DNA of 64,000 bases, taken from contig JAODTK010000334.1 in the NCBI GenBank assembly GCA_026419785.1, forward strand, positions 310,001-374,000. Reading direction: 5' to 3'. Each line of letters begins with the position of its first letter. The first letter of the stretch is position 1. This document shows, piece by piece, positions 9,433 to 64,000 of this stretch. The translations under genes were made by a program, and so were the position numbers. The DNA comes from Sclerodactyla briareus. Lineage: Eukaryota > Echinodermata > Holothuroidea > Dendrochirotida > Sclerodactylidae. The notes below the pieces were generated by a model. The model ran no database searches and had not been told where the DNA came from. It saw nothing but the letters and a program-made list of their open reading frames with translations.

Positions 9433-12400
9433 CTGTGTGTACAAGTCAAAACAGAAGAAGTCAATCAGGGAAAACAAATTTCAATAGAGCCTGATATTTG
9501 ATTTTGTTTTTCAATTGAGAACTTTGAGAGCCCTATATACAATTCCCATGACTGTATTCAAAAAATATATCTACAAAGAGTAACCATTGCCCTCATACCC
9601 GTCTGGATATTTCCTTTCGTTGTACCTCCGTGTAGATCTCCTCCAGGCTAAGTACTAGGTCCCTCTCGATGCAGGGGTCCTGGGTCTTACGACTCCTCCC
9701 CAGCAGACCTCCAAAACCCATGCTGAGGTCACCGTGGATGCCATCAAAAAATTCTAACCGGTTTATATGAAAGAATAAAAATTGTAGCAAATGTGAGAAA
9801 AGTGCACCCTCTATTTGAAAGGAAAAAAAATGCTAACGGTCAAGGGCTGAATTAGTAAAATTTGATATTAATTTCATTTGCAAAAAGCTGTTGTGAATAG
9901 ACAACCAATTAGCGTGGAGAAGACAGAATGTGGCCTTAATTCCATGGGAACTGGACAGCTCTCTGGTGTGTCCCTGGGCAAGACACTTATCTTCATCACT
10001 CGGCCCAGTCCAGGTGATAAACTGGACACCTGTGGGGTACCTGAGCACAACCAGAACATATTACTGCAATACAGGTCACTCATGATCAAGATAAAGTCCT
10101 CAACTGTAAGGAAGGGGAAGAAAGATGAACTACCAGTACACTAGAATAGTACAAACACTGTCTACCCATGCTTACCATTGAATGGATTATTACCACCAAG
10201 AAATCTCTGAACACTTTGTGGGGGTCACCATGGAAGGTATACCCGGGTAGCCAGGTCACATCTTCACCACTACCTGTCGGGACACCGTTCTTGAGGCCCT
10301 CCTCTCCAAACTGGTCATACACTGCTTTTTCTTTGGGCTGTGAAAACAATCGAGGATGACGTGCATAAAATGTAATGTATGCATACTAGCAACAGCAGGA
10401 GCGGATATAGCAGGAAGGGGGCCATATGTCTTGGACTTGTTGACTTGAACTACCTGCACACATAGGAAATGGCAGGTAATGCAGGTCCCCAATAGTCATT
10501 CCAGTTCTATTTTATGTTCAGAAGGTGAATAAATTGTCCGAGAAATTAAATTGATTGCTTTTAAGAACCAGTGAATACAATCAATTGCAAAATTGATAGT
10601 GGTATTGTCTGGTTATGGTACATAGGCATAACTTCTTTTCAGAGAGCCATGGAAATTTTAGTGTTGCTAGGGTTTTCGCCAGGGTATTAAAACCTCACAT
10701 TAGACCGGATATGTCAATATTATAGTGAATTTCTAATTTGACAACACACCAAGTGTACCCAAAATGCTTGTTTGGTAAGTGCATGGAGGCTAATGGAAGG
10801 CGGGATAAATGTCCCCCCTCCCCACTTTTTCTCGCATTGACTTAAAACATTCTCACACAATAAATCATTTGAGAATATGGCGATACCCCCTCACACACTT
10901 CAAGGGGCTGCTGAGGCTCATGGGTGAGTATAATATATAGAAGACTTGAAGACTGTGTGCGAGCTAGTCTTGTCCAAGACGCTTTGACTTTGTTTCTCTG
11001 CACCCCTTCATTTAAGCTCATCTTTCCACTGACTACACTATACAGTAAAGATACCGTGATCTGTGTCGATCGAATTGTTTTTCGACGGTCAGGTGAATAC
11101 GCATAGTCGCATAATCATCACGTATACGATTACTGGTGCTAATCAATGCACCACAGCGAGACTACAAAATCAATGCACAGACAGATCCAAATAATTAAAC
11201 TTGTGTATGTGAGTACTGGTCGGCTGTAGCATTTACAGTGCGCCAATGAGAAGGCATCATAGCAACATTTGGGAAGAAGATAAGGAGTCCACTGGATGTT
11301 CTAACGGTTACCTAGTCTTGTTCAAGACGCGATGAATCACTTACAGTAAACTTCGAAGGTTTATACGCTATAGATACTACTAGTACTACTCCCCCTACGG
11401 CCTGACGTGACCCGACATCGTAGTCTGTAAGACTGTAACGAGTTTTCCCCTACGGTAGTATGGAGAATACATAAGCGAGGTGATGACTGATCGCCTCAAT
11501 TCAGCTCCTTATCATAGCACTTTCAAACCAGTTATGTCGTCTCCATACCACCGTACCTGTCACTACACAGGGACGTTACAGGCAATTTAATTAACTCCGA
11601 TCTCTCCACGCGGCCTGCGGTATGTACTGCATGCTGGTGTTAATCAGTTTATATCATTGACAACGCTTAGAAATGACTGTGATTGGCCGCTTCAGATTGT
11701 AAAGCAGAACAAATGAGTTCAATTTAGACTGACTGTGAGACTACAACCACTGATGCATATATACAACACTGGGAGGTGGTGAATACGCAAAGCCAGGCGA
11801 TTGAAAGACACATTCGTCTAGACATTAGACTACGGTTTTACCATGTAGCAAAGGCCTTAATATTCATAGGAGCGTCTCTCACAATGACGTATTGGATCGT
11901 CCATATCATGAGATTTGTAGTAAATCTGACAGTATGAAAAGGTTTTATTGCTGAGGCATTTCATCACTGACATAGACCTAAGGAAACGAAGGGGCCACTA
12001 TTGGAATTTGGTGTTGCACATTGCATTGAGGAAAATAAGTACAATTGGGCCGCAAACAATGGACTAGGTGGTGGGTTCATTGGTCCAATGTTCACGACAG
12101 TTTCAACCTTTTGCAACCATGTTGTACTTCTTTGGGTCAACCAATGATAGGTACTAATGTTTTACGAAAGTCAATTGCATACAGATTTTGGTCAGCTATT
12201 GGGTCGAGATTGGGCACAACACAGGCACCTCGACCCACAAATTAGATTAACAGCAGGTTCAATTTCAATGATTTATCAAAATATAAATCTGTAAATTTGA
12301 GATGACAAAATTTACTGTAAAGGTTATCCCACTACACACTTTTGTCAACTTTATTCAGTGTTTTACTCACTATCACTCAGGACGTATATGCCCTCTGCAG

Positions 12401-14637
12401 CCCTGTTTAAATTTATCAGGCGCAATAGCTTCCTGATTTTGTCTGGGTGAAACTTCAGGCTAACTTTCTGTACTGGAAGAATTGCACAAGAACATCCCAT
12501 GTTGTAAACAAACATACACAACTGCCCAAGGCACTGACCAAAATTGTCAATCATTTTCAGTTGTCATCTATGGCAAACGACATGTCTCAAGTTTGCTCAC
12601 CGTCATGCTTAAACTCTAACAAGGTGTGGATGTTTATGACAGGCATCCTAATGATGATAGATACCCTCACTTATACATTCTAGGCTACCACTAGCAGAGT
12701 TGCACTGTGTTCACCTGACATGAGTATACTGCATCATTTTCTTCTCATTATCAATATACAATCCACCAAACACAATTAACCAGTATGTGTTCATCAATGA
12801 CCCATTAAAGTTTGTGTCTTCTTAGAATATGTTTTCTGGGCAGGCCTGAATAATTTATAGGAAAGTCATTTCACATGGACTCATCTGACGGACATTTATA
12901 AGAAAATGTGCACTCATCAAACAGCCACTCCTCCTGCAAGTGGAAGTAAAACCAAAAAGATGGAGGTTCCAATTCTGGTTTCTCTTGTAAGATGCGAGTC
13001 GCACATTCGTACCTTTTTGAAGATTAACCCTCTGACTCAGAATTGTGAACTTTATACTATCGTTATGTCTCTTCAAGCGCAGACAAGTAGGAAGAAACAT
13101 CAAACTAAGGATTTTCTATGCCAATATAATTGGGAACTGTGGAATTTGCGAGGGAACTTGATTACAAAATTGACACTTTCCAAGGAAGACTACTCCACAA
13201 TGTTCTCAACCTCAGATGGACCAATAACATTGGAACCAAACGTGATTCTATGATGTGACCGACCAAATCCCTCGGTCATCCATAGTGCCAACTAGGAGGT
13301 TGAGATTCCTCGCCATGTTGCAAGACCATGGAGACGGGGAGGGGGAGGTGGCTCAGAGAGGATTCTCTGGGGGGCATTGAGCATGCTGCTGGGCTGGTTT
13401 GGGAGACCCGTCGCTGCGTTGCTCGAAGGATCAGGTTGCAATTCAGGGACATTAACCTTAACAGTTTTGGGAAGCCGTGGCCTGCACTGGGCCTGCATAC
13501 AGAATCTTAATGCGTAGTGGAGGTGAATCGAATCGCGAAGCATGTCGGATAGACGAGACTCAACCTACTACGATCCACATTTCCATCATGATTATGAACC
13601 CTTTTGTTGAAACCAAAAGCAAAAGGCTTAGTGTTTCCTTGACTCTTTGACAACCCATAGCCAGGACACAAGAAAAATTGGGAGATTGTATCAAGCTCAT
13701 CATGGGAACATACGTCTGACAATTTCCACTTCTTCACCAACCAACAGTGGTTCCTATACTCTGATAAGATAGCTACCACTAATTTCAAAGATTTCCGACT
13801 TGGCCCCTGGTGAACCTCAAAACAATAGGGTTCATGTACTCATCATGGGGACACACATCCAAGTATGAGCTTCATCCTTCAGGTGGGGTTCAGTTATCGT
13901 GTTAACCAAGCCAAATGACTAAAATATGGACTTTCACACAATTTTAGATTTTTGATGACCAAAATTCACCCCCGACCTATACGCAAAACAAAAGTTCCTG
14001 TACTCCCCATAAGAAAGCGACACCACAAACTTCGAACCCAATCAGACCACCATTCTGGACTTCTCGTTCACACGGTTTTCAGACTTGGACTCTGGTGACC
14101 TTAGATGACCTCGACTGACCCAAACATAGGGTTCATTACCATGGACACACCTACCAATTATGAGCTTCATCCATCCAGTTGGGGTCGATTATCGTGTTAA
14201 CAATAGCCCGCGGCACATACATAATACATACACACACACACAGTCTACTGCATATATTCCTCTGTTCTCAAGGAATCAAAAATGTTCTGAAAGAGGAATA
14301 ATGAATTATGACTAGCGAACCTATATGGTTATCATGTACATGACCGGCGCACCCACCACCCTAGAGCATAGGGTATACTATAACAGTAATCAATAGCCTA
14401 CGGAAAATTTGCCACTAAAAATCCTGACTATTCAGACCTAAATCATTAATAGGAGGGCCTTGACCATTCTGTACTCAGTAGGCAAATCAGGTAAATGCAC
14501 GATTCTAATTTTAGAAATTGATGCACTCTCTGCAAACAGCAAATTCATCGACCGTGATTGTTACTTACGCCTCTGATACAGCAGCATCAACTGCCGAACG
14601 TTGTCAACCCATAATCGCATAATAGTCGCCAACCCAT
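9128..14637 (-). CDS. DNAJB13: DnaJ homolog subfamily B member 13, five exons, 3' end not found (locus span)
   Basis: Five minus-strand exons at 14569-14637, 12371-12467, 10176-10337, 9599-9753 and 9128-9432 reconstruct a type II J-domain co-chaperone. They give a start region 'DYYAIMG', the J-domain 'LKFHPDK' with the catalytic HPD triad, a G/F-type linker 'FGEEGLKNGVPTGSG', and substrate-binding CTD segments including 'KEGDQGPNNIPADIVFI'. DNAJB13 is an axonemal radial-spoke protein of motile cilia and sperm flagella. Introns have canonical splice sites. All five exons carry apparent single-base frameshifts relative to conserved residues, which I read as assembly indels because protein conservation is otherwise high. 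The expected final segment (about 50 residues after 'IPINDIV') was not found in 308-9127. The start codon faces CFAP47 head-to-head, 553 bp away. Confidence 0.92.
9599..9753 (-). CDS. DNAJB13: DNAJB13 exon 4
   Basis: It follows minus-strand acceptor 'ccggttag' and ends at donor 'gtatgagg'. It reads 'FFDGIHGDLSMGFGGLLGRS', 'KTQDPCIERDLVLSLEEIY', 'EVQRKEISRR'. These match the 'GGL.GR....QDP..ERDL.LSLE' block of DNAJB13. A small mismatch around 'TEVQRKE' may be another indel. Confidence 0.9.
9940..10060 (+). mobile_element. SINE body fragment in DNAJB13 intron
   Basis: 'tccctgggcaagacactta' followed by 'cccagtccaggtgataa' and 'ggtacctg' is the same tRNA-unrelated body as the SINE at 60.83 kb ('ccttgagcaaggtgcttta', 'tacccaggtgtaatgggtac'). 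No A/B box is visible here, so it is a truncated copy. Confidence 0.5.
10176..10337 (-). CDS. DNAJB13: DNAJB13 exon 3 (end of J-domain and linker)
   Basis: Minus-strand acceptor 'ttttcacag' and donor 'gtaagcatg' bound it. It reads 'PKEKAVYDQFGEEGLKNG', 'WLPGYTFHGDPHKVFRDF' and, after a one-base shift, 'GGNNPFN'. The family signature 'GY.FHG.P..VF..FFGG.NPF' is clear. Confidence 0.93.
10338..12370. other. DNAJB13 intron 2
   Basis: No additional exon seen. It holds one 16-bp inverted repeat (11451-11466 / 11540-11555, listed separately) and scattered small open frames without support. Confidence 0.5.
11451..11555. repeat. Short inverted repeat (16-bp arms, 1 mismatch)
   Basis: 'tacggtagtatggaga' at 11451-11466 is inversely matched by 'tctccataccaccgta' at 11540-11555. 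It could be a MITE-like or hairpin element; no target duplication is obvious. Confidence 0.4.
12371..12467 (-). CDS. DNAJB13: DNAJB13 exon 2 (J-domain with HPD motif)
   Basis: Acceptor 'ccagtacag' and donor 'gtgagt' (minus) bound it. It reads 'KVSLKFHPDK' with the HPD motif that stimulates Hsp70 ATPase. After frame changes 'EAIAPDKFKQ'-like sequence and 'AAEGIYVLSD' follow. This is helix II to helix IV of a J-domain. At least two apparent indels interrupt the frame. Confidence 0.9.
12468..13580. other. DNAJB13 intron 1, proximal part
   Basis: It contains a 115-codon open frame (12906-13253, +) and overlapping minus frames without domain or splice support. Nothing else recognised. Confidence 0.4.
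13581..14265. repeat. Dispersed repeat with internal duplicated modules and CA run
   Basis: 'atgagcttcatcc' plus 'gttatcgtgttaac'-like blocks occur at about 13866-13910 and 14160-14200, about 295 bp apart. Each is preceded by a 'gggttcat' and 'ggacacac' segment. The copy nearer the promoter ends in 'acacacacacacac' at about 14228. Confidence 0.5.
14569..14637 (-). CDS. DNAJB13: DNAJB13 exon 1 (start codon)
   Basis: ATG on the minus strand at 14637-14635, donor 'gtaagt' just after 14569. After one-base corrections it reads as Met-Gly, then 'DYYAIMG', then 'SAVDAAVSEA', matching the 'MG.DYY..LG..R.A..A.IK.A' start of DNAJB13. The exon is short (69 bp) and holds two or three apparent indels, so the assignment rests on position, the 'DYY' motif and the donor. 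Confidence 0.75.
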
Positions 14638-15338: not shown

Positions 15339-18300
15339 GTATGTATTCGGCTACTGTCTATCCACTATGTGGTCATTCGATCAATATGATGTGGGCCTAC
15401 GTGGGCTATGTTGTTCAAAGAATTAAGAATAAAGAATTTTCCAGAAAGCACAACTTTTAGGTTCTGATAGGCCAACATAATGAGTGTACTGTACTAGGAG
15501 GTCTCCCGATGTTCCACAGGGTTGATGTTCCCAGGGTTCGATGTTCCCAGGGTTTATGTTCCCAGGGTCCGTGTTCCCCGTTTTCGTTATATTTTTAAAG
15601 ACCCATGGAGGTTTTACGAGGTTCGGTGTTCCCAGGGTGCGATGTTCCCAGGGTCCGATGTTCCCAGGGTCCGATGTTCCTAGTTTTTTTATTTTTTTTT
15701 TTTTTTTATTTTTAATGACCCATGATTTACAAGGTTCGATGTTTCTGAGGTTCGATGTTCCCAGGTCCGATGGTCACAGGGTTCGAATGTTCCCCGTTTT
15801 TGGTTAATTAATGATCCATGAATTTAAAAGGTTCGATGTGCCAGGGGTCAATGTTCCCAGGGGATAATGGATCATTAAAAAATATAACAAAAACGGGGAA
15901 CATCGAACCATGGGACAATCGGACCATGGGAACGTCAGACCCTGGGAACATTGAACTTAGATTCATGAATCATAAAAAATATAACAGAAACAGGGAAATC
16001 GCGCACCCTGGGAACACGAAACCGGGGGGGAAACATTGACGTAGCCATACGGTGTGTTGGTGTTACTGTTAGGCCTAGCCTAGGTTAATTTATCATTCTG
16101 TTGATTCTAATAGTTGTGTCGACCAAGTTGATTGTTGATATTACAGTCATGTTCTTCATTCTTCTTGTGAACCAGTCTGTAATGAATGCAATGAAACGTT
16201 CTCCAAATGTGTCCTTTATATCTCTAACCTGTTTATTATGACTCTCCAATTTGCAGCACAAGCATGAAGAAACACAGGAAACACAACAGTTACCGTAACA
16301 GCCAGCTGGCTATTTTGGTGGACATGTCCGGACTATGTATAAAATCTGGAAGGGTCCAATTTGTTTTAAACTAACTATATAAGTGATTGTCATTTTTGAT
16401 GGCTTATTACAAACATTATGGACCAAATAATGATGATTTTGATGGCAGAGTTGCATTTATCAAGCTCGTTTTCCTCCATGACCAAATGACCTAGTGTGGC
16501 CGATCGAACATTGTTAGAGGTGATAAAAGATGTCTTGACCTGCAACAATGGAATATAAGATCCTGAGGTATCCTAAGGTAAATGTGTAGGAATCTTAGTT
16601 GATGGGAAAGGTCAAGGTGTCGAAGGTATTAACCGGGGCACGTATGCCACTGTTCCATTCTGGATGGATATATGTTGACCCAACTGAGTCGTAACAATGC
16701 TTAATGAACGAGAGAAATACATTGGCTATGAGGAAATGAGGTTCGAAGGTCATTAGCAGGGGCACAATAGAACATTGTTTGAAGCTGCTTTTGGCCTTGG
16801 GATCTTTAACCCAATAACATTGAACACACATATTGTGCATTGTCTTAGACATTGTGCGGTTTGAGCGAAAGGCACAGTGGTGATCTAGTTTGTGAGAAAA
16901 ATTGATTACATGATCCCTTTGTGAAACCCTGGTAACATGATATTCTCGAGATATGCTTGGTTAATCAAGGTGAAAATTGCTATGCAGCCCCATATGGGGA
17001 TTTTTTTTTTTGCAAGAAATTGGAAAATTGTGAAAGAATTGAATTTATATTATAGGCTTATGAACAGGATAACTCAACAGCTCAATCCAAACTCAATTGG
17101 TATGTGGGTTCCCCATAATGTGTACATGATCTCTTTTGTTTTAGGGTCAGGCTCAAAGGCCCTCGAGGTAATGTACAGAAACATAATAATAATAATACAC
17201 TCATTTATATAGCGCTGTGTTTAGGCCTCCTAGAGCTTGCCAGTGGCGCTTTACAAAACAAGAGAGATAGAGAGGGAAATACAAATAGACAATTAAGAGA
17301 AGCATAAAGAAAAAGGTAAGTCTCAATGAGCCTTTGGAATGCAACAATGTCTCTGTGGCAGATTAAGCAGTAGGAAGGGCATTTCGAAGCGAGGGGGTGG
17401 CAATGGTAAAAGCACAGTCTCCGGCGGAATGCTTTTTGGCTTTCTTTCTCTGAAGTAAGGAGCTGATGAAATGAGCGACTGCATACCAAAAACCTTGCGA
17501 ACATGATTATTTGATCCATAATGCATAATCCGATCAAGTTGGAATTAGTATGCAGTTTCTTAGGGGGGAGTACGGAGATCCCAATGATTGGGTATGGGTG
17601 GGAGAGTAAATAGTGGGTAAAAAATGGGCAAATTATGATAAATTGCATTTGGTCACCAAATATATCTCAACATTTTATGGCGAAGAAGAAAGTTCTGTGA
17701 TGTGATTCAGTGAGTTTATATTGGTGGGTTCTTCTAATTGTCCTTTCTTTTCTATAGATTTCAAGTTATTGTGGACAATCCAAGCAAGCCCATTGCTCCT
17801 GGTCTGGAGGTTAACGCGACAGTCGAGTTCTGCACGGACAAGAGTGAAAGACTGGCAGGACCGGATAATTCTGCAGGTAGATGAAGACGTCATTGAGATA
17901 CCGCTTTGTGCGTAAGTAGTCTTCCTTATGCCAATCCCCAATGCTAAATGTCTTCTCTTTTTCACAAATTGCATCTCTGTCCATATCTTTTTCCATACAT
18001 GTCAAAGTAAAGTGAACATGCAAGCGAAACATTACTTCCCCCTCCCTTCTCTACTACTACTGGTGTAGCTAGTGTTGGAATTGTGCTGAAAACCATGCAA
18101 CAAAGCCTTTGGGACTGAAATCTGGATTACAGCTTATACACATTATTGTTCACTAAAGGAAATATGAGTTTCTGTATTAACTTTTTAGAAATACTACCTC
18201 TCATGACTGTTGACTGTTAAGGTAGAGTATAGCAGTATCCACTGTCTCGGGTCTGCTACAGTCTTGGCTGGATTGATACAATTCAATTCAATTCAATTTA

Positions 18301-21300
18301 TTTCGTCTATACAAAAATACAATGGTACAGACAGGACACTAGAAAAACGAGTTTATAAACAAGTTTGATATTCGACTAGTGAAACCAGTGAAAACTAAAA
18401 ACAGAGAAGATACATGACAAGAAAGTGGATTACAAGGGATACAATTATAGGAGGAAGTATTGATCGTAAAGGTAAGCTTTGAGATTACGATTAAAGGTGC
18501 TAGTGTGGTAGACATCTTTATGACATTTGGTAAACCATCCATATCTTAACGCAGTAGTAGTTCAAAGTAATTTGCCATGTTTTCGAGTTGTGCGGCTTCT
18601 GAGAGAGAGCATTGTTCCTTGTGCGTGCGCAGCTTCGAAGGTCGCACAGGTTAATAAGGCGAGAAACTACAAGAGCAGATAATTATTTACATCCTGTACT
18701 GTAGTAACGAACAAATCTTTATAACAGAATATCGTAGACCTTAAGGGTGGTAAGATGGAATGAAGAGCATTCGTGGAGTACCCCCGAACGGTGTCTGTAA
18801 GTCTCAGTTTTCAAGACTCCTATTTTGAAGGACTTGTAACGGGCTTTCAGTAAGGTGGCGGAGGGCATGCCGTAATTTCTCTACAAACCCGTAAGGAGAT
18901 CCTGAACCATACAAAGGGAATGGTTAGCTGAAATAGCGCGCAGGAGTGAGCGAAGCTCTGATGCGAAAGAAAATCACCATTATACTTAAGCCCGATTCAT
19001 TGCAGAGAGCATCACTGGGTTTGCTTTAAGAATAACTTGGTCGTCGATGAACAGAACCTCAGTACTAACAACAGTCGTCTTATAAATACATATATCATTT
19101 AAGATGAAGTGCTAAGGACAGGTGTGAGTAACCTGTTGTTTGGTGGAAAAGTGGAGAAGTTGTGTTTTTCCCTAGAAAAAAAAAAAATTGCCCAAAGTCA
19201 TTGTTAGAGTCAAACCAGTTTTTAGCCTGACGAGAACATCAATGAGCTTTATAAACAAGGATTAGTGCAACTGCTGTCTGAACAAAAAAAAACATTTGTA
19301 TCATCAGGCGAAAAGTCTGATTGAATCCGAGGAACAAGAAAAACATTACTGAATCATTTACGTAAATAAGAATAACCAGCGGACCTAAAAAAGACCCCTG
19401 GGGCACACCCATAGTAACGAACGTTGGAACTTGACGAATAACATCCATTGACTCCCGTGCTTGTTTCCTATTAGTTAGTAGGTGAGATGACGCATAAGCC
19501 TACCACGAATACCGTCATGTACAATTTGGCAAAGAAGGATTTATGGTCAATATTGTCCCAAAACAAAAGCTTTCTAAGCTCAAGATAACGGCCCAAGACG
19601 CACTCGCCGTTGTCGAGATGAGTACTAATACAATTAACTGTTTCCACCAGAGCATGACCCGTGCTGTGCCCCTTATGAAAACCAAATTGGAAATCGAATA
19701 AAGTATTATTAATACTCAAGGAATACCTAGGCGTTTCTCGATTAACCTTTCCAATACTGTATTAAACAGCAAAAGACTGAAGGAAACAGTAATGTTCCGG
19801 AAGGCTTCGTCCCCCCTTCTGAAAGTGTGAATTACTTTGGCCTCCTTTAAGGCTTCGGGGTAAACAACGGTGGTTATAACAAGAATTAAATACATGCCAC
19901 AGGACTGGCGCAATTAGATGCGAGATGGACTTCATACTAGGGGGGGTGCCATCAACACCATGCGACTTATTATCTTTTTAAGAGCGTAATTTTCATACAA
20001 ATTCACTACAAGTGGTAGGAGTTAAGAACATAGTGTTAATAATAATAGTTCATGCATAAATTGAATTGGATCGTTATTACTCATGATATTATCACTGAGT
20101 TTTTTTACCAACTTTGAAAAAAAAGTCATTGAAGCATTTGCTATGTCACCGTCGTCAAACAATAGTATATGATGTAGTCAAGTTGTTAACATGAGTGGTG
20201 GAATACTTTACTGTCAGCAGATTGTGAAGGATAGGACCAACGTTTTCTGTGCAGAGTGTTGATAATCATGACTAATACGATTGGGATTATTGTGACTTTG
20301 AATCGCTTATTGTTTTGTTGAGGACAGATTGACTTTGACAATGAAGCTTTTCTTTCGGGAGTAGGGGTAGCAATAAACTTGCGGAACATGGTATTTTTTC
20401 CGGTTTAATCGAAGTTTTGATGCCGGCATAATCAAGGGCTTTTGCTTAGCCTTTTGACGGGACAACCTAACAGAACGAAAGTATTCGTCATGGGTGGCAA
20501 TAACCTTGGAAATGAATATGCTGTAAGCTTCGTTCGCATCAGCCGTACCATAGACACTTTCTGAGAAGTCAGTAGACTGAATGTGACCAATAAATTTATC
20601 AAAGTTATTAATGCTGTAAATTCGAACAAACGGTATGTTTTCTCAGCACCGTTAGTTGTAATGTTTCGACGGCAAAATTGACAATGATCACTAAGATCGC
20701 ATAATAAGTGGTCCAGCGATAATCTCTGAGCGTATTCAGTGTGCAACTTAACAAAATAGATAATCAGCGTACTAGAAGATTCATTTAACCTCGTGTAGGG
20801 TAATTACTGTGAAAAAAGATGGCATTTCATAGATTAACATCACTAGCAACAGTACTGCCTGTTTCCTATTTGCTCAGCTCAATGTTCAAGTCCCCACCAA
20901 AGATACAGGAACTACTCCCTGGGGATCGTATCGCTGCCTTTTCTAAGCATGGAAAAGTGAACATTTCCTTTAGGATTCCTATAGCAAACGATGATTTGCT
21001 ATCTTTGTGGTTTACATTTGACGTCTACCCATAGGTCCTCTACTTGGCTATTATTCATTGCAGTCTAAATAATGAATAATAATATTTTCTTCCTATACCT
21101 TTGACACACCAATTTTTTAACAAATAGCAACACCACGCATTTGGACTGCGGAGGTACAAGTTTCAAAAGAATAATCTTGGCAAATGTTTGCAACGAGTGT
21201 GGACCACATTTACCAATTTCAGAAGCATATGATAATCAAATTCCGTATTCAAAGACCTTCAAGAAAAGCAACAAATTCCTCAAGTGCTTGGGATGCTTCC

Positions 21301-45300: not shown

Positions 45301-48300
45301 GTGGAGGATCATTGAGCTCAGGATGGGGGGCACTGTGGAACCGCCAGCAGTGGACATCGATGTGGTGGGTATTATTAACCATTGATGTGTGACCATGGTC
45401 AATTATAAATTAAACCCCCCCCCCAATTTTTTTTTTCTAGCCCATTGACATCCACAAATGAGTTATCACCACATTAAGACAATGATATCTAACATTTTAT
45501 ATTTACAACTTGATTCTTCAGTAAGTATTCAGTTCTCATGTTTTTGAATACATATATTAGGAGGCGGATTAGCTCAGTCGGTAGAGCTCTGACTTAAGAT
45601 CAATAGATTGCGAATTTGAATCCTATTGAAAGCCCAAGGTTTTTTTTCGCAGTGCTGTTAGACAAAGCATGTCTCCTCGAATGATCACACTACCCACATG
45701 TAAACTGACAGAGAGTCAGGAGGGTCATACTAAAGACTTTAACTGGTGTTGCACATTGTGTTCTGGGTAATGCCCTTGTCATTTCTATGATGCGCTCCGC
45801 TACCCTGACAAGGTGAGTCATTTTCCAACGGCAAGGTGACAACACTGATGCTGCTAGTCACTGAACTGAGGGGTTCAGTCATTGTTAGTCCGTTGTTCCC
45901 ATTTTGCACAGCAAGATATAATCTCAAGTCTGTTGAAAGTGACTGTGGTTGTGTCATTTTCCATGATGTGTCAGTCACAAGAATGACTGAGGGGTGGGTC
46001 ACTGTATACCCAGTCTGTTGACCCACCTTAGTGTAATGACTCACCTTGCCTGTGGTAGTAGGGCTGCGTCATGCAATTGACAAATGCACAAGCAGTAGAG
46101 AACACTCTACAACTGGAAAATGCAGTATACTATGGACCCTGCTAATTGAATCAGGAAGCTAGGAATTGAGCTTAGCACTGATCCCTACTCACAAGTAATA
46201 CATGTCAGTGCAGTTTTTATATTCAAATTTTGAATTTTCCTCACAAATTAGGAAACACAAAGAACAAGACACTTTGGAAATGACCTTCGTTTATCGACCA
46301 TAATTTATCCTTATTCAGCCATCGTTCCAGTTGGGTGGCGTCTACTGTGGTTCGACGGTCACCGTTCCATTCAAGATGGCTAACAAGGCTAGGACCAGGG
46401 CTAAGGTGGTCTTTGACCTCTCACGATACCAAGACTTCACCATGAAGTTTGATGCGGATGTGATGGAAGGTAACTTTTTACCATCTAAGTCAATGTTACC
46501 GAAAAGCTACCTCTGCAGGTTTTCAACTGCAATATATTGAGTGGTAGAACTTCACCACTTGAAGGTACTACCCCTCCTTTGGGCTGGGGGTTTACATGTC
46601 TTGATATGTCATCAAACATTACGACCTACTGTTTGATGGTAGTAGAATTCATTATCATTCAATATCATCGAACAAATGTCCTATTCATTCTGGTTTCTTC
46701 ATGTCATTCAAGTGCTATGTTCAAAAAAGCTTACATGTTTGATAAATGAGCCTAAGAGTAGAGAATGTGTTTTGGGCTGACATCTTACCAAGAAAAAAAC
46801 CCCAAACCCTGAGAAATCTTACGATGTAATCAAAAATTCACATCTGCACTCACCCATTCAGTTGGATAAGGGTTTATTATATGACGGTCCATAGCACTGT
46901 CAGTCTAAAAAACTTGCATAATTATCAATTCATGCATTGTGTTCTTGCTTTTCGGCTCTTGCGATGTTCTGAAGGATAGCAAGCAGTCATGATATGTACG
47001 CTTGTAAAATGTTGCATTCAAACTAAACCATGTGATATTCACTTCTGGAAAATTTGTTCTACTTCAGAATCTGAAGACTCCTCCAATCCAGGGGTGTTTC
47101 ATGCCACAATCCAGGTAGCTCCTCTCTTAAGAGCTGGCTCCAGTTCTCCCCCACGGAGGTGGCCTCCTACGACTTTGTCATCCCGGTCAGCATCAACCAG
47201 ACTGAAGCACCCACCCCTAGCCCCACCCCACTCCCACCCACACCAGCGCCCTCTCTCAGAGCTCCGGCACATCATCCTCGCCGAAAGCCGGTCATAGTTT
47301 CCGTGGCGACGCCCAAACGCCGGGTCGTGGCAACAGCTCTGACTGATATGTACGCTTGTAAAATGTTGCATTCAAACTAAACCATGTGATATTCACTTCT
47401 GGAAAATTTGTTCTACTTCAGAATCTGAAGACTCCTCCAATCCAGGGGTGTTTCATGCCACAATCCAGGGTAGCTCCTCTCTTAAGAGCTGGCTCCAGTT
47501 CTCCCCCACGGAGGTGGCCTCCTACGACTTTGTCATCCCGGTCAGCATCAACCAGACTGAAGCACCCACCCCTAGCCCCACCCCACTCCCACCCACACCA
47601 GCGCCCTCTCTCAGAGCATCCAGCACATCATCTCGCCGAAGCCGGTCATAGTTTCCGTGGCGACGCCCAAACGCCGGGTCGTGGCAACAGCTCTCCGCCA
47701 ATCCTTGGAGGTCTCCCATCATAGTCTGGAGTTTGCCCTCCCCTCTGGATATCTGGACCTAGGTCTGGCAGACAACAACGGGCAGTCCAAGGGGACCCTG
47801 TTCATCAATAACAGTGCCAAGACACTGGAGTGGTCCCTGGATACCCAGGGGTGCAGCCTGGCCATAGATGAGGGTGTCTTCCAGTTTGTCTCGTCCAATG
47901 GTGTACCCCACCTGTCACCGAGAGAAGGTGGTTCCAGTGTCTGTGATTCGCTCGAGCCAGGAGAAACCTACAACCTTGCCGTCAAATTCTGCCCCAGTAA
48001 GTCATGGCCGGCTCATGGGTTAGCTTGCCATTTTGCCAATGTTGGGAAACTATAGTAAGGCTTGGACCATCAGAAGCAGTCCAGGTTTGTTATCAGTTAA
48101 TAAGATAACAAGATCATGAGAATGTTGAGTTAATGAGTTAATGAGAATATTGACTGAGGTCATCACAGAGTTCATCCTCAAAACTGTAACCTCGCAGCTG
48201 GATGGAATGCATTCCCAATATTTCATGCTAGACTGGGCTGCAAATTGACCACGGAAATGAACACTGTGCATTTCCTCCCAGAAATTGTTGTTTCTTTCTG

Positions 48301-51300: not shown

Positions 51301-54300
51301 CCAAAAATATATTACTGAAGCCCCTAAATTTTGTCCACGTAATGAATATAAATCAATAAAATCAAAATTGCTCTAAATAAGATTGAGATTTGGCAGCTGG
51401 TAAAGGCATTTCTGGGTGATTTGAATGTCGTTACCAGTTTCAGTTCAACTAGGCACTCTCACATGTTGGGGAAGAAAAAAAAAAAAAAAAACAAGCGAGA
51501 GTGCCCCCTCCCAATCTTATGATGAAGGTCAATATCCATATGTAGTGCCCATCTCTGGGAATCTTCCTGGATAATATAATAATATTACACATTTATATAG
51601 TCCATACCGCTGAGCTGCCCAAAGCTCATAACGCATGATATCCCGATCATAGTAACCAATTCTAGAGAGAGTATTTCATAGCAACTCAACTCAAAGCTGT
51701 GGAATAGTTTACCACAGTGTATTAGAAATGCTGTTTCTCTTGCCAAGTTCAAGAAGAAGCTCTTAAAGACTTATCTTTTTACGAATCCACAGAGTAGGTC
51801 TAATTTTTCATCTTCAGCTTGTTGTTTATATAGGTATATTTTTGTATTTGTCATAGTATATTCTTGGTATTTTTACAGCTGTTTTAGTATTTGGACATTG
51901 TACTAGATTTTAGGATTCACTTGCCGCTATCGTTTAATTCTCTATTATTTTTTCAAACGTTTTTTTCAATCTCTTATCGTTTTCTTCAATTTTTTGCAAT
52001 GTTTTCCTATAACTCATGATATTTCATGTTTTACTTTGTAAGCGCTTAGAGGCCTCTTGGGGCATTTCTGCGCTATATTAAGTGCCGTTTTATTATTATT
52101 ATTATTATATTATTATTATTATTAGCAGGGTCAGCTCATGTTTCTCACAGGTCCCCACTTATCTCCTGGGTCCGGTGTCATGCTCAAAGTCGCTCCAGGT
52201 TTATGGCATGTTGAACCTAAAATCTGTGATATATGGTGTGGAGCTCTGCCAATTAGGCACAAAAGTAATTGTGAGGGCATTCATCCTCCAAAGAATATGA
52301 CCTACTGAATCATGGGCTCTGAATAGGTATGATTGATTTGATTTGATTCTACGGGTTCATGGAGTCAAGTAAGGCTCAAGGAAGAACCCTGGTCGTAGTG
52401 ATGGTGGGTGAACCATTTCACGTCCTATCCAGAGAATCAGTGAACTCCAGGACCCAACCACTTTCTCAGAACCTGGAGGAACTCCAGGTTTTCAACATGA
52501 CTGCTCACAGTCGACCACAGGACTTGTTGCAAATATCCGTGAATAACCCCAGAAGGTACACTGCATCACAGCAGAACCATGGAGTGAACACGAAGACCTC
52601 GCTCATCGCAATTACGACTACAGCCACCTAGGGGAAAACGTCCGGTGACTGCTGGAATTCGAACCCAGAAATTTTGTTTGCCAAGCGTCACTGATGCCAC
52701 TCTGCCATTTCTCCACCCTACAAGTCTGTGACTTACCATTTTTAATCCCTCCCATCCAGTATCCACCTATCCGAGCACACCAAGGATGGCGCTGTCAACA
52801 GAGCAACCAGGGGTGTTGATTCCCAGGGTGACGTGCCGGTGGTAAGCCACCAGGTCCCTGGGGTCAGCGGTGTTCCCTGATGAGGAGACAGAGGAGGGTA
52901 TCTTCCACCAGGAGGTGCTAGCTGCGGTCCAGCGGTGGATAACCCTCCACGGCTGGCCTGGGGGACCATTCCCTGTACTGGTACCTGAAGGACTGAGGAG
53001 GTTAGTTCATTTGTCTCTTCATATTGAAATTAGAGAAAATTAGGTTTAAATTAGAGAAAAATTAGAGAACTGTGATCTATGGATGGTAAATGGTAGTGCA
53101 AATGTCTGAATAGATATACACCAGGAGTAGTTAAATTGCAGTTTTACAGGAGGTCCATAATATATTTGTCGAACCGATATAGTCTATTGGCCCGGTGATA
53201 ATGCTTGGAACCCAAAGGTGTGGGTTCGGATCCCAGAGGAGGGATATTGGTTTCTTCTCTAGGCAGGAAGAATCAAATCGGCTGCCAGGTAGTTTCAGTA
53301 ATCACAAAAGTTTGGTTGGGTGCAAATTCTGACTACTGGTATAATCACGCCACGTAATTCTGACTGCTGGTGCATCTCCGCCCACTCGGGATAGTACTGT
53401 GATTGGCACTAGGCAGGAAACTTCTTCCGGCACACAGCCCCGTCATCTGGACATGGGAAGCAGGTGGCTAGGGCTGAGGTGTTTCCGGATTTGGATCCTC
53501 CGCACCTAGGCACTGTTCACAGTGAGTGCCTCCAAACGCTAACGATAAATACAGTGTAAGCTTACTCAAGTTCCCCACAGGTCCCAAATTGGCCCCTGAG
53601 TGGAGATGAGCATAGAGATGCAGCAGAAAAGCTGATCTGTCGCCTGCAGGATTCAAACTCCCGATCTTCTAATCAGCATTCCGGAGCTCTAATTGATTGA
53701 GTTCATCCAATCTGTCATGGTTTGTTGGTCTCATTAGGCAATCGTTATATAGTGATATATTTATAAGGTGAGCTGTCTACTCTGATGAAAAGGCTGATTT
53801 GGGGATCTAAATCCAACTGGAGGTGCTCATTTCTATCTCTGGCTGATTTTAGAAGTTGGGGGGGGTGTTTAGTTGTTTTCCTGTTTCAGGTGGATAGTCA
53901 GCTGCCGCTCGTATTGAGTTGACTGAAAATGGATTATTTTCAAAATTTCATTCAGTGGTGTCTCCAAAGGTTCAGCAGCAGATGCTGCCCAGAACAAGAG
54001 CAGTAAGAGTCCAGCGACTAACAACCAGAAGAAGAGTTACACCAAGACCATCTATGAACCCTCCTTCCCACCTCAGTGGTAGGCTTGGGTCCGGATACCT
54101 GTCCACCAGGCCCGACCGTCGGGCCCCACTGAGAGGGTGAGGCAGCTCCACTGGCAGCATACAACCATGATGACATTCCTTAGGTGGGTACAACTGGTGG
54201 GTGTGTGGGTATCATTTTATCAGTGGTAGACCTGTCCCTTGGATACCTGTCAACCAGACCCTACCCTCGCACCCCACTGAGAGGGTGAGGCAGCTCCACT

Positions 54301-57300
54301 GGCAGCATACAACCATGATGACATTCCTTAGGTGGGTACAACTGGGTGTGTGGGTACCATTTCATAAGTGGTTGGTAGACCTGTCCCTGCGATAACCATC
54401 AACCAGGCCATTCCCTTGGACCCCACCGAGAGAGTGAAGCAGCTATACTGGCAGCATATAACCATGATGACATTCTTAGGTGGGTATAACCGTATAACTG
54501 GTGAGTGTGTGCGTACCATGTTATAAGGTGGTAGGAAATCTCTGGGATACTCATCAAACCATGCCCTACATTGTGCGCCACTGAGAGAGTGAAACAGCTG
54601 CGATGGTACATGGATCAAAACAGACTCAACCATAACTTCTTCGGTTGACCACAGATGTCCATTGACCTCTCTTGAAAGCAGTATGTATCATATACTTCTC
54701 ATAATGAACATACATAGGACCGGCTCTCAAAATGTCCACCCAGTACTCAAAGTCAATTCAAGCCTTCCCGCTCGGCACAATTTTCTTACCCTAACTGAAT
54801 AAAAAGGTCCTAGGAAAATTCAGAGGACCAAACAGAGCAACAGAAGGTATCTCAGGGGAATTTTGAGGATCAAAAATCTGGATCAAAATGCCACCATTTT
54901 GCATGTAGGCACCATTGAGATTTTCCCCTTATACCCCTCCACCAGGACGCACATCAATCACATATTACCTGGCTCTGAAAAACCCTGCATAGGACCTATC
55001 AAGTATTGCCTTAACATGTTTCATAGACCTTTCTGCAGATCTCCAACATGTGTCTTGTTCAGATCAATGCATCATGGAATTGAAGTGATGAAGAGTGCCA
55101 CCAAGTTTTGTCCATATTTGGTCATTTGATCCTTGTTCTATCCCAGTCTCAACCTCAACACTGCCATATAGGAGAATCTATGATCACATATCACAGGTAG
55201 TTGAGTAGTTCAATATAGTAATCCTCAGTACACCCCATTCCTCATGGGCCCAGGGGCCTTCTATAGCACACATCAAGCCTGAGTTCCTCTTTGAGCCTAA
55301 GGACTACCATCGATGGGTCATCCTCCAGCAGGGAGAGGAGAAGGAGGAGAAGGGACTAAAGGCCGATCCGAGCCTGACCTCCACGCTCTCAGCTGAGACG
55401 GAGGATACCCTGCTGGATGGCGCCCTCTTTGAACTGGTCTCCAAACGGGCCTGGACGGACCTCCTGCTGCAGACTTTGAAGGTACTTGAAGGATTTAAAC
55501 TGTTGTTTTATATTTGTATCGGTTGATAATGTAGTGTTTCTTGTATTCATGAATAATAATAATTTGTACAGTGTTTCATTCAATATTTGCTGTAGGGGTT
55601 TCACCTCTTATTTTCATATAGGTCTTGGTTCTTGCTAGACTGACCCCTAGGCAGTACAAGAACCTCCCTGCTCCCGGAGGTCAACCCCTCCGTCTATCAA
55701 CCCCGACCCTCTGTGTAGTAACATCTACTGTGTGGGGGAGAGGATACTGCTCTCCTGGCTAAACCATCACTATGAGGCTCAGAGGCATAGGATCTGGGAG
55801 AATGCAGAGAAAGGTGAGTTTTTGGAATCATTTTTCTTCACACTCTTTGAGCAATGGAATTATATGTTCACATACATCAACTTTAACTCCACCCAGGCCC
55901 TGTGAAATTATTCATTATGTAGGGAGAGGTGTCCTGGCCAACAGTCCATTTGATCCCCGTTCAGTTATGGAATGAACAATATGCAAAATATGAGCCTCTT
56001 CAATTTAATACCCCCCCCCTCCCCCCATTACCCTATCCCCTCCTTATCACAGATGTGATCCATTCTTCTCTGTCCAAAACCACCTGTGATGTGGGGCAAA
56101 GAATTCTTCCTGGAAAATTCTTCCTAACCTCGGGAATTTTCCTCCCCTACATGCTCCTTATATTGTCCGTTTCAGGGAGGACAGTGAGCAAGTACAATGT
56201 CTAAAAAAATTACATACAAAATTTCATAAAGCACATTTTACAGACATTTTGCAGAAATTTAACAATACTAAGTGTTCCATTCTTCCCTTCACCTGTATTG
56301 ATTATGTAGGGAGAGGTATCCTGGCCAACAATCTATTCAATTCTCATAGGCATGGAATGAACAATATGCAAAAAGTCTGAGCCTCTGCCAATACCCCCCC
56401 CCTCCCCCTTCCCCAATCACCATATCCCTTCCTTATCACAGATGTGTTCCATTCTTCCTATGACAGGTGTTACTGTTAACTCCCACCTTTAATGTTGAGC
56501 ATAGAATTTTTCCTAGAACTTTCTTTTCCTCCCTTCATGAATCCTTATTATGTTCTGTGTTAGTGAGGAGAGTGGCTAAGCAAGGAGCTCAGAAAGAAAA
56601 TCCTGTATACAATGTCTGATGAAATTACATGCAAGATTTGATACAGCACATTTACAGACATTTACACAAATTTAACATTGCTATTGTATCTTAACATTAG
56701 CTTCTTTGTTTTCAGGTGGGGTTCCTGCCTCCCGGTGGGTGGTCAACTTTGACTATGACCTTCTGGATGGTCTTGTCCTGGGGGCACTCTTGGCGGCCCA
56801 TGTACCCTTCCTCACCACCTCCCACCTGCTGGGTATGTACACCCAGCCCTCAACAGCAGAGCAGTGTCTCCACAATGCTCTCAAAGTGGTTACAGCGTTC
56901 AGGTCTATCGGCCTTGACTATGATATCCAGGTAAGCCTGATGAGTATGTTCTGTGAATTCTGTAGGTCATCTCTTCTGGGTATGTACACCCAGCCCTCAA
57001 CAGCAGAGCAGTGCCTCTACAATGCCCTCAAAGTAGTCACAGCCTTCAGATCTATCAGCCTCGACTATGATATCCAGGTAAGCCTGATGAGTATGTTCTG
57101 TGAATTCTGTAGGTCATCTCTTCTGGGTATGTACACCCAGCCCTCAACAGCAGAGCAGTGTCTCCACAATGCTCTCAAAGTGGTTACAGCGTTCAGGTCT
57201 ATCGGCCTTGACTATGATATCCAGGTAAGCCTGATGAGTATGTTCTGTGAATTCTGTAGGTCATCTCTTCTGGGTATGTACACCCAGCCCTCAACAGCAG

Positions 57301-60300
57301 AGCAGTGTCTCCACAATGCTCTCAAAGTGGTTACAGCGTTCAGGTCTATCGGCCTTGACTATGATATCCAGGTAAGCCTGATGAGTATGTTCTGTGAATT
57401 CTGTAGGTCATCTCTTCTGGGTATGTACACCCAGCCCTCAACAGCAGAGCAGTGTCTCCACAATGCTCTCAAAGTGGTTACAGCGTTCAGGTCTATCGGC
57501 CTTGACTATGATATCCAGGTAAGCCTGATGAGTATGTTCTGTGAATTCTGTAGGTCATCTCTTCTGGGTATGTACACCCAGCCCTCAACAGCAGAGCAGT
57601 GTCTCCACAATGCTCTCAAAGTGGTTACAGCGTTCAGGTCTATCGGCCTTGACTATGATATCCAGGTAAGCCTGATGAGTATGTTCTGTGAATTCTGTAG
57701 GTCATCTCTTCTGGGTATGTACACCCAGCCCTCAACAGCAGAGCAGTGTCTCCACAATGCTCTCAAAGTGGTTACAGCGTTCAGGTCTATCGGCCTTGAC
57801 TATGATATCCAGGTAAGCCTGATGAGTATGTTCTGTGAATTCTGTAGGTCATCTCTTCTGGGTATGTACACCCAGCCCTCAACAGCAGAGCAGTGTCTCC
57901 ACAATGCTCTCAAAGTGGTTACAGCGTTCAGGTCTATCGGCCTTGACTATGATATCCAGGTAAGCCTGATGAGTATGTTCTGTGAATTCTGTAGGTCATC
58001 TCTTCTGGGTATGTACACCCAGCCCTCAACAGCAGAGCAGTGCCTCTACAATGCCCTCAAAGTAGTCACAGCCTTCAGATCTATCAGCCTCGACTATGAT
58101 ATCCAGGTAAGCCTGATGAGTATGTTCTGTGAATTCTGTAGGTCATCTCTTCTGGGTATGTACACCCAGCCCTCAACAGCAGAGCAGTGTCTCCACAATG
58201 CTCTCAAAGTGGTTACAGCGTTCAGGTCTATCGGCCTTGACTATGATATCCAGGTAAGCCTGATGAGTATGTTCTGTGAATTCTGTAGGTCATCTCTTCT
58301 GGGTATGTACACCCAGCCCTCAACAGCAGAGCAGTGTCTCCACAATGCTCTCAAAGTGGTTACAGCGTTCAGGTCTATCGGCCTTGACTATGATATCCAG
58401 GTAAGCCTGATGAGTATGTTCTGTGAATTCTGTAGGTCATCTCTTCTGGGTATGTACACCCAGCCCTCAACAGCAGAGCAGTGTCTCCACAATGCTCTCA
58501 AAGTGGTTACAGCGTTCAGGTCTATCGGCCTTGACTATGATATCCAGGTAAGCCTGATGAGTATGTTCTGTGAATTCTGTAGGTCATCTCTTCTGGGTAT
58601 GTACACCCAGCCCTCAACAGCAGAGCAGTGTCTCCACAATGCTCTCAAAGTGGTTACAGCGTTCAGGTCTATCGGCCTTGACTATGATATCCAGGTAAGC
58701 CTGATGAGTATGTTCTGTGAATTCTGTAGGTCATCTCTTCTGGGTATGTACACCCAGCCCTCAACAGCAGAGCAGTGCCTCTACAATGCCCTCAAAGTAG
58801 TCACAGCCTTCAGATCTATCAGCCTCGACTATGATATCCAGGTAAGCCTGATGAGTATGTTCTGTGAATTCTGTAGGTCATCTCTTCTGGGTATGTACAC
58901 CCAGCCCTCAACAGCAGAGCAGTGTCTCCACAATGCTCTCAAAGTGGTTACAGCGTTCAGGTCTATCGGCCTTGACTATGATATCCAGGTAAGCCTGATG
59001 AGTATGTTCTGTGAATTCTGTAGGTCATCTCTTCTGGGTATGTACACCCAGCCCTCAACAGCAGAGCAGTGCCTCTACAATGCCCTCAAAGTAGTCACAG
59101 CCTTCAGATCTATCAGCCTCGACTATGATATCCAGGTAAGCCTGATGAGTATGTTCTGTGAATTCTGTAGGTCATCTCTTCTGGGTATGTACACCCAGCC
59201 CTCAACAGCAGAGCAGTGTCTCCACAATGCTCTCAAAGTGGTTACAGCGTTCAGGTCTATCGGCCTTGACTATGATATCCAGGTAAGCCTGATGAGTATG
59301 TTCTGTGAATTCTGTAGGTCATCTCTTCTGGGTATGTACACCCAGCCCTCAACAGCAGAGCAGTGTCTCCACAATGCTCTCAAAGTGGTTACAGCGTTCA
59401 GGTCTATCGGCCTTGACTATGATATCCAGGTAAGCCTGATGAGTATGTTCTGTGAATTCTGTAGGTCATCTCTTCTGGGTATGTACACCCAGCCCTCAAC
59501 AGCAGAGCAGTGTCTCCACAATGCTCTCAAAGTGGTTACAGCGTTCAGGTCTATCGGCCTTGACTATGATATCCAGGTAAGCCTGATGAGTATGTTCTGT
59601 GAATTCTGTAGGTCATCTCTTCTGGGTATGTACACCCAGCCCTCAACAGCAGAGCAGTGTCTCCACAATGCTCTCAAAGTGGTTACAGCGTTCAGGTCTA
59701 TCGGCCTTGACTATGATATCCAGGTAAGCCTGATGAGTATGTTCTGTGAATTCTGTAGGTCATCTCTTCTGGGTATGTACACCCAGCCCTCAACAGCAGA
59801 GCAGTGTCTCCACAATGCTCTCAAAATTTGGGAATATCTCCATAGGCCAACATGCTAGGACCTCCACATTTGGGGGGTGGGGTTTTTGATATATCCTCTT
59901 TCACCTCTGCTAGTTTAATGCAAATCCGATCCATGACCATTGACCTCTAACAGTTCATTGCCAGGGCAATCAACAAAATATGTCGAGCATTTACTATATC
60001 AGCCCAAGTTATGAGACTGAAAAATTGATGTTGCTTTTTCTCACAGATTCAGCTCAGCAATCAAAGCAGCAAGCCTTAGTGTACCACGCCATCGTGGCAG
60101 GGCAGGATGCCAGGGACTTTGTCCTCCCCAGGGGAGACACCATCACCATCCCACCAAAGAGCAAACAGGACCTCACGATAACCTTCACCAGCAGGTTCCT
60201 GAGACCGGCCCACGCCGTCCTGGTACTGGTTGGTAGGAGGGCTGGGGCCGCCACGGGGACGACTTCTCGTCTTTAATCTGAGGGCGCTCATCGATGACGT

Positions 60301-63300
60301 TCAGCCAGCGGTGAGTATCGTTAGTTTTGTTCTGTTTTTGTTCATCGTGTGATATATGTTCAAGACACATATTCTTACATGAATCTCTCTCAGTTGCTGG
60401 TACTAGGGCTTCATGTATTTTTCGATGTGATTGGATTGCACAGCTGCATCAACCTTATACTCATTTGGAGCGATTTGTATATTTAAAACAAGGTTGAACT
60501 CCTTGACGTCACTACAACCGTTTTTCACCTTTTGGGCTACCTGTTACTGAGATGCGGTTTTGGATCTGGAAGTACCTTAATTGATTGGTTTTGTCAAAAT
60601 GGCCTGAACAATTGGTTGGGAGGAGATTCACTGCTGCATCAGGAACTACTGGAGTCACTTTAATATGATGACATATCCATGAATATTTTGGGTTCTTGGT
60701 TAAACTTAATTTAACATCTGTCCCCTTCCCATTGCCATTTGTTCAATAAGAGGGGCACTTTCTCATATCTTGGTGTAGCCAGCCATGAGTATTCTTAAGG
60801 TTCAGCTGAAATCTGTGACCTTAGAGAGCATGGTGGCCTAATGGGTTAAGGCGTCGAGCTCGTAACCCAGTGGTTGTGGGTTCGAGTCCGCGTTGTACCC
60901 TTGAGCAAGGTGCTTTATCTCGATTGCTTCACTCTACCCAGGTGTAATGGGTACCCTGTTAGGTAACTATATTCGTGCGCTGTATGTGGCTGCACTTATG
61001 GGAAGTCCCGCAGGGGACATGATTAATGTGCATTAACGTTTCAGTGTGCCAGGTGTGAACAGCAGGGGTTGTGCACTATATAGTGTGGGTGTGAAAAGTT
61101 ACCAATGAGCAGGGGTAATGATTGAGATGTGGTTCCCACATGTGGCGCTGTAAAATCGAAATCATTATCATTATCATTATTACCTCATCCAACTCTTCTT
61201 CTCCTATACCAAATGACCTGAAGAGGACCCAGGAGCTCTCACTGTGCAAACAGCCGTGAATAATGTCCAAGCTACTTCAACCTTATCTTGTATCAAATCT
61301 TCCATTTGTAGCCTGCAACTCCTCACTGTCATACCTGTATCAAACACCGCCGGGTCTGTGATCTGAGATCTCTTTGATATTAGACATCTCCATGAATATT
61401 TTTAGTTCTTGGTGAGCTTGGTTTTTAAAACAACTGTACCCTTCCCAACTCTCTTCTCTCTCTTTCTCACACATCTTGGTTCCAAGGAGGGTTTGAATCT
61501 CCTAGAAATGACTGTGTCAGTTGGGCATTTACTACTTATAAAAGTGCTGTCATAGATCATGGGGAAGAACAGCTATTGGCAACCTCTCCCATTTTGGGAG
61601 TGAGGGGAAGGTGGGTGGTGGGTGGTGGAGGGGGGGGGTGGAGGGGAGGGGGGAGGGATGCACACCTCATGACTGTCCCGTGGGCCAAGATGATGAAGTA
61701 GATTTGATTAAAACAATAGGCGTATATTCATCAGGCCCTCTGCACCACGCAGGTCCTGAAAACTGGCCTCGTGGGCTGGAATCTATTCCACATATTCAAC
61801 TCACTCTATATTGGACCCTGCCCCAATGCACAATCCAGTATCTAGCAATAACACAAATCCGGGTAAGCCATCCCATCGCCTTTCTCATTTTGCCAGGCTT
61901 AGAGTCTAGTAATTGAGCGTCTTTAGCTAGTAAAATTTGTGGATTTTTTCACGATATATCAAGTTCAAGTCATGTAGAAGTTAACCATTAGGAGCATCTT
62001 TCTACAGACGTTGGTTCCTTGTGTGGCTTTTTTTTATCAAGCAGTTTCCTTTATGATCACAAGGATTTTTTAAGGATTTTATCTTGTTTTCTGCCTCCTG
62101 TTGCGTAGGTGCTTGTGGCAATGCTTAGGCTCTCATGTGCTGCTACACTCTGCCTCCGCCTGTCATTGACCTTCACACAGGCCCTAACCTCCCACTGTTG
62201 AGTTCCCCCACTCAGTTTCAGTTTGTGTTGTCTCCCATCCCCTCCTGCCCATCTTATCCTCCCTTCCTTGGGTTTTCCTCCCCTCCCTTCCCCTGTCTTT
62301 CCCTCCCTATTGCCCCCTGGCGGTCGGCTGTTCCGTTCGCATGGGCCGTGGAAAGTTTTCAAGCAGAATTCAGTCTAATATTTGCACTCTATTTACGCTT
62401 TGCTTGGGCGGCAGATGGCGAGACCTGGATTTTGTAGGCAGGATTCTGGCCATGAAATGCCCCTGCCTAGTGCAGAGCATGCATGGTTTATAGAATATCA
62501 AAATAATGAAAACAGTTATGGAGAGTCCGTCCCTCTCCTCTCTCTCTCCCACAGGGTTTGATCAAGAGTGAAAGCCCATGTTACCAGTTGGCTACACTAG
62601 ATGTCGAGGTCAGCAACCCATTCAAAGAGGCTGGCGATTTCAGGGTCGTGCTCACTGAGACGGCGTCCCTCAGCCGAAACACCAGCTTCCAGCACATCAT
62701 TGAAGGGGAGGGACCTGAAGAAAGTCAGGTCAAGGGTCGATCATGGGCGGAGGAAAGAGATGACCCCCACACCCTTTGAGCATGTGATGTCACTTCTGAT
62801 TCTGGAGGAAATCTGGACAGTAAGTCTACCAAGGGGTTTTAATTCTATAATTAATTACTTTGAACTAGTACTAGTAGCACTGGAGGTCCTCTACCCAGCT
62901 TTGCCAAAATATCACATTCTGCAGGCTACTGTGGTTCATCATCGAGGCATGAATGATTTTTTTTTTCTCCACTAAAATGACAGATCCCAGCATTGCACTT
63001 GGTTGTTTTAACGGAACTTAATATGCCATTTTCTTCCGAAAATTCTGAATCTTTCAAACAAAATGTAAATGGGATTAGTAACTTTAACTATATAGTTCCC
63101 CCTATCATTCGTTGACCTTTGTAGCAAATGAACTTGCCAGCTCTTACAGCCATCCCTCTCTGGTTTCTGTGATCATTGGTTCTTTGAAACCGAGCAAACA
63201 GTGCTAGTATTACAGGAAATGGGAGTTATATAGCAACTTAAACGCAGGAACCACATATAAAAGAACAATTGAAAATTTGGAAATTAGGCAACCAGTGAGC

Positions 63301-63741: not shown

Positions 63742-63882
63742 GTAGGTCATGGATTGTCCAGGTGCAGTCCTCAAAACAATTGACTGTAGTCCAAATTCTC
63801 CAAATTTTGTGTGCATGATATGCAGGAAATTATAAATGAACTAAATTAGCAATGATTTTTTGAATGCCTTTTGAGTTAGGCT

Positions 63883-64000
63883 CCCCCACTCAGTTTTCGG
63901 TCAGTTTGTGTGGTCTCCCATCCCCTCCTGCCCATCTTATCCTCCCTTCCTTGGGTTTCTCCCGCTCCCTCCCCTGTCTTTCCCTCCCTATTGCCCCCTG
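63883..64000 (+). repeat. Pyrimidine-rich direct repeat, copy 2 (cut by window edge)
   Basis: Second copy of the 62205-62319 repeat, 1.68 kb downstream in CFAP47 intron 32. It runs off the window. Confidence 0.85.

Follow-up and report, generated by a model that had tools for sequence, protein, structure and literature searches.

The window analysed here is a stretch of 64,000 nucleotides from Sclerodactyla briareus (contig JAODTK010000334.1, positions 310,001 to 374,000 of the forward strand), and it contains exons of the gene CFAP47. The joined translations of these exons match the CFAP47 chain of PDB 9ijj, presumably that of mouse, with an E value of 4.9e-77. The best of the 94 homologs found by protein search is P0001, a protein of Apostichopus japonicus that shows 75% identity over all aligned exons and whose matches run in order along the window, in keeping with colinearity of CFAP47 over several exons. 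One exon, which encodes part of a CH domain, leads into a long tandem array. The array and its surroundings contain the following features.

56716-56930, plus strand: CFAP47 exon encoding part of the CH domain, with acceptor and donor seen (exon 28 of the preliminary description)
56829-59825, plus strand: tandem array in CFAP47, with 20 complete 147-bp units and a 57-bp partial unit
56931-56975, plus strand: intronic 45 nt of unit 1, beginning with the native donor GTAAGC
56976-57122, plus strand: first B unit, unlike A at 9 sites, 7 of which are third codon positions
59724-59729, plus strand: last of the 20 identical donors, in the same phase as the others
59826-60046, plus strand: gap of 221 nt between the array and the next recognised exon, without a match to residues 1032-1076 of P0001
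59856-59858, plus strand: stop codon closing the read-through frame, 10 codons past the array
60047-60310, plus strand: next recognised CFAP47 exon (exon 30 of the preliminary description), with two frameshifts and phase 0, its 3' end placed by eye

The exon numbers 28 and 30 are those of the preliminary description. Several other repeats are present in the window. A tandem duplicate of about 387 bp (68.5% identity) lies at 55909-56683, in the intron that immediately precedes the repeated exon, a minisatellite of GATGTTCCCAGGGT-like units, part of it inverted, occupies 15507-16027, and a direct repeat of about 120 bp (92% identity) is found at 62204-62319 and 63882-64000, 1.6 kb apart. Open reading frames at 19239-19761 on the minus strand resemble pieces of a retrotransposon reverse transcriptase.

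Tandem Repeats Finder, run on the window, reports a period of 147, 20.4 copies and 0% indels at 56829-59825, which bears out the period, the zero length variation and the position given in the preliminary description; the amplification called 21-fold there amounts to 20 full units plus a partial one. Each unit consists of the last 102 nt of the CFAP47 exon and the first 45 nt past its donor, and the earlier assignment of the gene and of these unit boundaries agrees with the CFAP47 alignments. Only two unit types occur, A (16 units) and B (four units, numbers 2, 9, 14 and 16), arranged in the order ABAAAAAABAAAABABAAAA and followed by the 57-bp partial A. Within each type all units are letter-identical, and the 9 sites at which B differs from A all lie within unit positions 39-87. 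The array spans 2,997 nt without a homopolymer run of four or more. A Blast search of the unit against the window (E up to 1e-3) found no places beyond the 21 in the array. The order of the units is unique in words of length k = 1,100 and is not unique at k = 900; it could therefore have been established only with reads considerably longer than a kilobase.

The exon at 56716-56930, whose last 102 nt form the exonic part of unit 1, aligns with P0001 at 90% identity over 72 codons with no frameshift. Alignments to the solved CFAP47 chain stop at the exon end, 56930, with at most one residue beyond it. The array units begin 113 nt inside the exon (56829 compared with 56716); the native acceptor and the 5' part of the exon are absent from them, and they are not whole exons with an acceptor and a donor in each copy, as tandem exon duplication would have it. 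A CAG/GTAAGC donor is found at 20 of 20 complete units, from 56931 to 59724, with a spacing of 147 and in one phase; a donor had been ascribed to every unit, which holds for the complete units and not for the partial 21st, where it is missing. The 35-nt segment with a possible acceptor that had been pointed out, GTAAGC...TGTAG, is present, with TGTAG 35 nt after the donors. The array thus has the layout of a dual-specific splice-site array of the UBC type, with the same AG/GT site in each complete unit and a spacing that is a multiple of 3. The reading frame is open across 56676-59858, through all units. A frame read through the whole array meets the stop at 59856, ahead of the next exon, and could be rejoined only by splicing from an internal donor. 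The repeats are accordingly not continuous in frame with the remainder of the protein.

The exon end is common among relatives. In 36 of 52 related exon-sized predicted proteins it is followed by V (a GT), which is taken to mean that these proteins read on into an intron in this position, and 16 of the 52 continue into the next coding stretch at the exon end. The junction between one unit and the next was found in none of eight related proteins with a 1,047-residue query, of which each matches 7-8%, or about one copy, and in none of 52 related fragments with a two-unit query, as judged on at most 26 residues after the main match. These searches covered proteins of 0.55-1.75 times the query length, and the 1,047-residue query was scored against the 7,993 candidates that share most words with it. 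The true coding expansion listed as one option in the preliminary description lacks support, given the stop at 59856, the conserved exon end (36/52) and a junction seen in no protein found. Plain coding expansion is not supported, since the read-through frame is stopped, the native exon end lies at the first donor and the junction is absent.

A true but variable coding expansion, in which alternative in-phase donors would add 0-19 half-CH units of 49 residues to CFAP47, is very unlikely in our estimate. Such an expansion would account for the open frame, for 20 identical donors in phase with one another and with a next recognised exon of phase 0, and for a B type that has diverged mainly at silent sites; polyubiquitin offers a precedent in which splicing varies the number of monomers (PMC10809524). 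It is opposed by the missing junction (0/8 proteins, 0/52 fragments), the stop that ends full read-through and the doubtful copy number, and half CH domains in tandem would be unlikely to fold.

The doubt about copy number comes from the base errors of the assembly, for which two further features of the window are informative.

46990-47694, plus strand: 354-bp tandem duplicate over another CFAP47 exon, a local yardstick of indel noise
9149-12461, minus strand: pieces of DNAJB13, matching chain 8wzb_B with an E value of 2.9e-50

A frameshift-aware alignment of P0001 with the window contains 22 frameshifts and one in-frame stop, itself between two frameshifts, over 1,328 codons. When the first copy of the duplicated exon and one doubtful exon overhang are dropped from the count, 20 frameshifts are left over 3,648 nt of CFAP47 exons, a rate of 5.5 per kb; a few of them sit close to exon ends and may stem from the alignment. 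The noise is uneven: 6 of 17 exon stretches, the repeated exon among them, are without a frameshift, and 10 of 15 tiles of 147 nt from the CFAP47 exons have at least one. The array has 0 indels in 2,997 nt against 16.4 frameshifts expected at the mean rate (Poisson P 7e-8), and among 200,000 samples redrawn from whole exon stretches, each totalling at least 2,850 nt, the lowest had 3 frameshifts. The array therefore differs from its flanks in base errors, as is expected of an assembly artefact.

Pseudogene decay was considered as a cause of the frameshifts and rejected, with one stop against 22 frameshifts and with DNAJB13 likewise noisy. About five within-exon frame changes were counted in DNAJB13 pieces chosen by eye, three of them clear and two in weakly aligned pieces; one 135-nt exon piece has no internal frame change. 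Because DNAJB13, an unrelated gene, also switches frame within exons, the frameshifts are attributed to assembly noise and not to decay of CFAP47. The two copies of the 354-bp duplicate, which could be a true duplication or assembly stutter, differ by four single-base indels and one substitution, so equal sequence does not carry equal errors and the noise is not fixed by the local sequence. No run longer than 3 lies within five bases of 19 of the 20 frameshift sites, and the lack of homopolymers is probably a weak explanation of the error-free array.

Since the array is free of errors amid indel-rich CFAP47 exons, its units probably do not represent independent calls. The zero length variation, which had made the array striking, is better evidence of this lack of independence. 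The error-free units may be copies of one or two consensus pieces, or the pooling of reads over units may have levelled out their errors; with pooling, the number of copies could be about right. A recent true expansion would give identical copies too. On the argument from base quality, the copy number is not one to trust.

A second irregularity is seen at the right edge of the array. In P0001 the repeated exon is followed by residues 1032-1076 (45 residues), with the boundary at 1076 defined by the start of the next recognised exon of the window. Permissive tblastn found no match to these residues in the window: the best match of a core piece has an E value of 0.66 and lies elsewhere, and a longer piece matches well only where the next exon begins. 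A complete CH-domain coding sequence is not found in the window. The idea that the intronic 45 nt derive from the missing exon (VSLMSMFC against VSLLMLC in P0001) was weighed by eye and set aside: GTAAGC is always translated as VS, and the match with the solved chain ends at the donor. The next exon is more likely to have been lost by assembly at the edge of the repeat than to be truly absent from the animal.

If the array and the loss of the exon were both real, the window would hold a disrupted allele or copy of CFAP47 with up to 19 extra donors against the native one. This agrees with the next exon being unmatched in the window and with the identity of 20 of 20 donors, and the exons on either side of the gap are both of phase 0, so that skipping the missing exon would preserve the frame. 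The base errors, though, are not those of decay, with a single stop to 22 frameshifts and DNAJB13 equally affected, and deletions at the edge are expected where repeats are misassembled; a disrupted allele is accordingly judged quite unlikely.

The perfection of the copies and the missing exon also bear on the assembly loop that the preliminary description had listed as an option. In its purest form there would be no tandem copy in the genome, and the assembler or a gap filler would have looped one exon, with alleles or paralogs mixed in as A and B. The two unit types without private differences are what one cycle with a single A/B branch in the graph would produce, and an error-free array amid noisy surroundings and the lost exon at its edge point the same way. 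Such a loop requires the junction of unit end and unit start in at least some reads, and an older array shows that duplications of this kind occur in CFAP47. We regard an artefact without any underlying duplication as rather unlikely. The excess of copies looks like a product of assembly, with a small real duplication probably beneath it.

That older array lies over another exon of the same gene.

54073-54599, plus strand: older, decayed array over another CFAP47 exon, with a unit of about 148 bp in four copies

Its unit comprises an exon end, the donor and some intron, the same design as in the 147-bp array, and relative to the reference copy at 54220-54367 the other copies are 88, 79 and 73% identical, with indels. 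Among the differences between A and B, 7/9 occupy the third position of a codon, where one third would be expected (P 0.008), and B seems to have diverged as coding sequence. This divergence would fit an old copy, and also an allele or a paralog that the assembler had mixed in. The mostly silent differences of B and the presence of the older array in the gene together make a real, smaller tandem duplication likely. The preliminary description mentions neither this older array nor the stop at 59856, the lack of the next exon or the two exact unit types.

The two arrays both begin directly after TCCCACCT (at 54066 and 56820), an 8-mer with four occurrences in the window that was spotted post hoc and is a lead only. 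In the related fragment P0103, EMYMQPAT stands just after the same donor and echoes EMYTQPAT of the exon segment. The score of this echo was reached in 2 of 5,000 shuffles, with 50 tails tested; an independent duplication of this exon end in P0103 is possible, and the likeness is suggestive only. Taken with the older array, the echo would fit an exon end that has been duplicated independently elsewhere, and the array could then be real and young, its 20 identical in-phase 5' splice sites letting the choice of donor set the number of half-CH repeats. We give this reading very little chance. If it were true, a ladder of donors would have grown from a duplication-prone exon end in an animal ciliary gene.

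The explanation that we favour, and hold to be moderately probable, is a real tandem duplication whose copy number was inflated by the assembler and whose copies are intronic, leaving the protein unchanged. A segment over the end of the CFAP47 exon and the first 45 nt of the intron would have undergone tandem duplication, so that the genome would have two or more copies, one of the diverged B type. The assembly would then have turned this duplication into 20.4 letter-perfect copies, with loss of the next exon at the right edge of the array. The native acceptor and the first donor would define the exon, with the later donors as decoys, and the copies, if present in the animal, would leave with the intron by splicing. 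In this account the number of copies would be the assembler's, the duplication beneath it real and the first donor the one used. Use of the first donor, with intronic copies, is the simplest reading of the anatomy, and intronic copies are favoured because the exon end is common to relatives and the read-through frame meets a stop.

The array serves mostly as a caution, as it shows how sequence alone can expose a striking, uniform coding array that deserves no trust, once its indel rate is set beside that of neighbouring exons. A real duplication would add to the older array of CFAP47 a young instance in which the end of an exon was copied along with the donor; duplications of this kind are proposed raw material for new introns and variable repeats. 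Among the CFAP47 papers listed, those on tandem repeats included, no title or abstract opening mentions such an array. A literature search on partial exon duplication in tandem with a donor returned one paper, on Lynch syndrome testing.

Several known systems resemble the array in part. Assembly errors at tandem repeats are treated in passages mostly concerned with collapse (PMC6868369). As in those repeat regions, the assembled copy number in CFAP47 is untrustworthy; unlike in collapse, too many and too perfect copies are suspected, together with a deletion at the edge. Where tandem duplication has produced mutually exclusive exons (PMC9013439), exonic sequence is likewise duplicated locally, whereas the CFAP47 copies are without the 5' part of the exon and its acceptor and are not whole exons. 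In the RdRp gene of potato an intron was gained by tandem duplication across an exon-intron boundary (PMC4974935), and the duplicated segment in CFAP47 similarly spans such a boundary and brings a splice site along. The potato segment covers an intron-exon boundary, was duplicated once and has a demonstrated new intron; the CFAP47 array covers an exon-intron boundary and is written in many copies, with no new intron shown. Human UBC and VCX3A carry tandem arrays of dual-specific splice sites, and the number of polyubiquitin monomers is variable through splicing (PMC10809524). The CFAP47 array is like these in having a splice site in each in-frame unit, by which whole units could be removed or kept without a change of frame. 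It differs from them in that its units are half a domain over an exon-intron boundary, and not whole coding monomers, and in being known from sequence alone.
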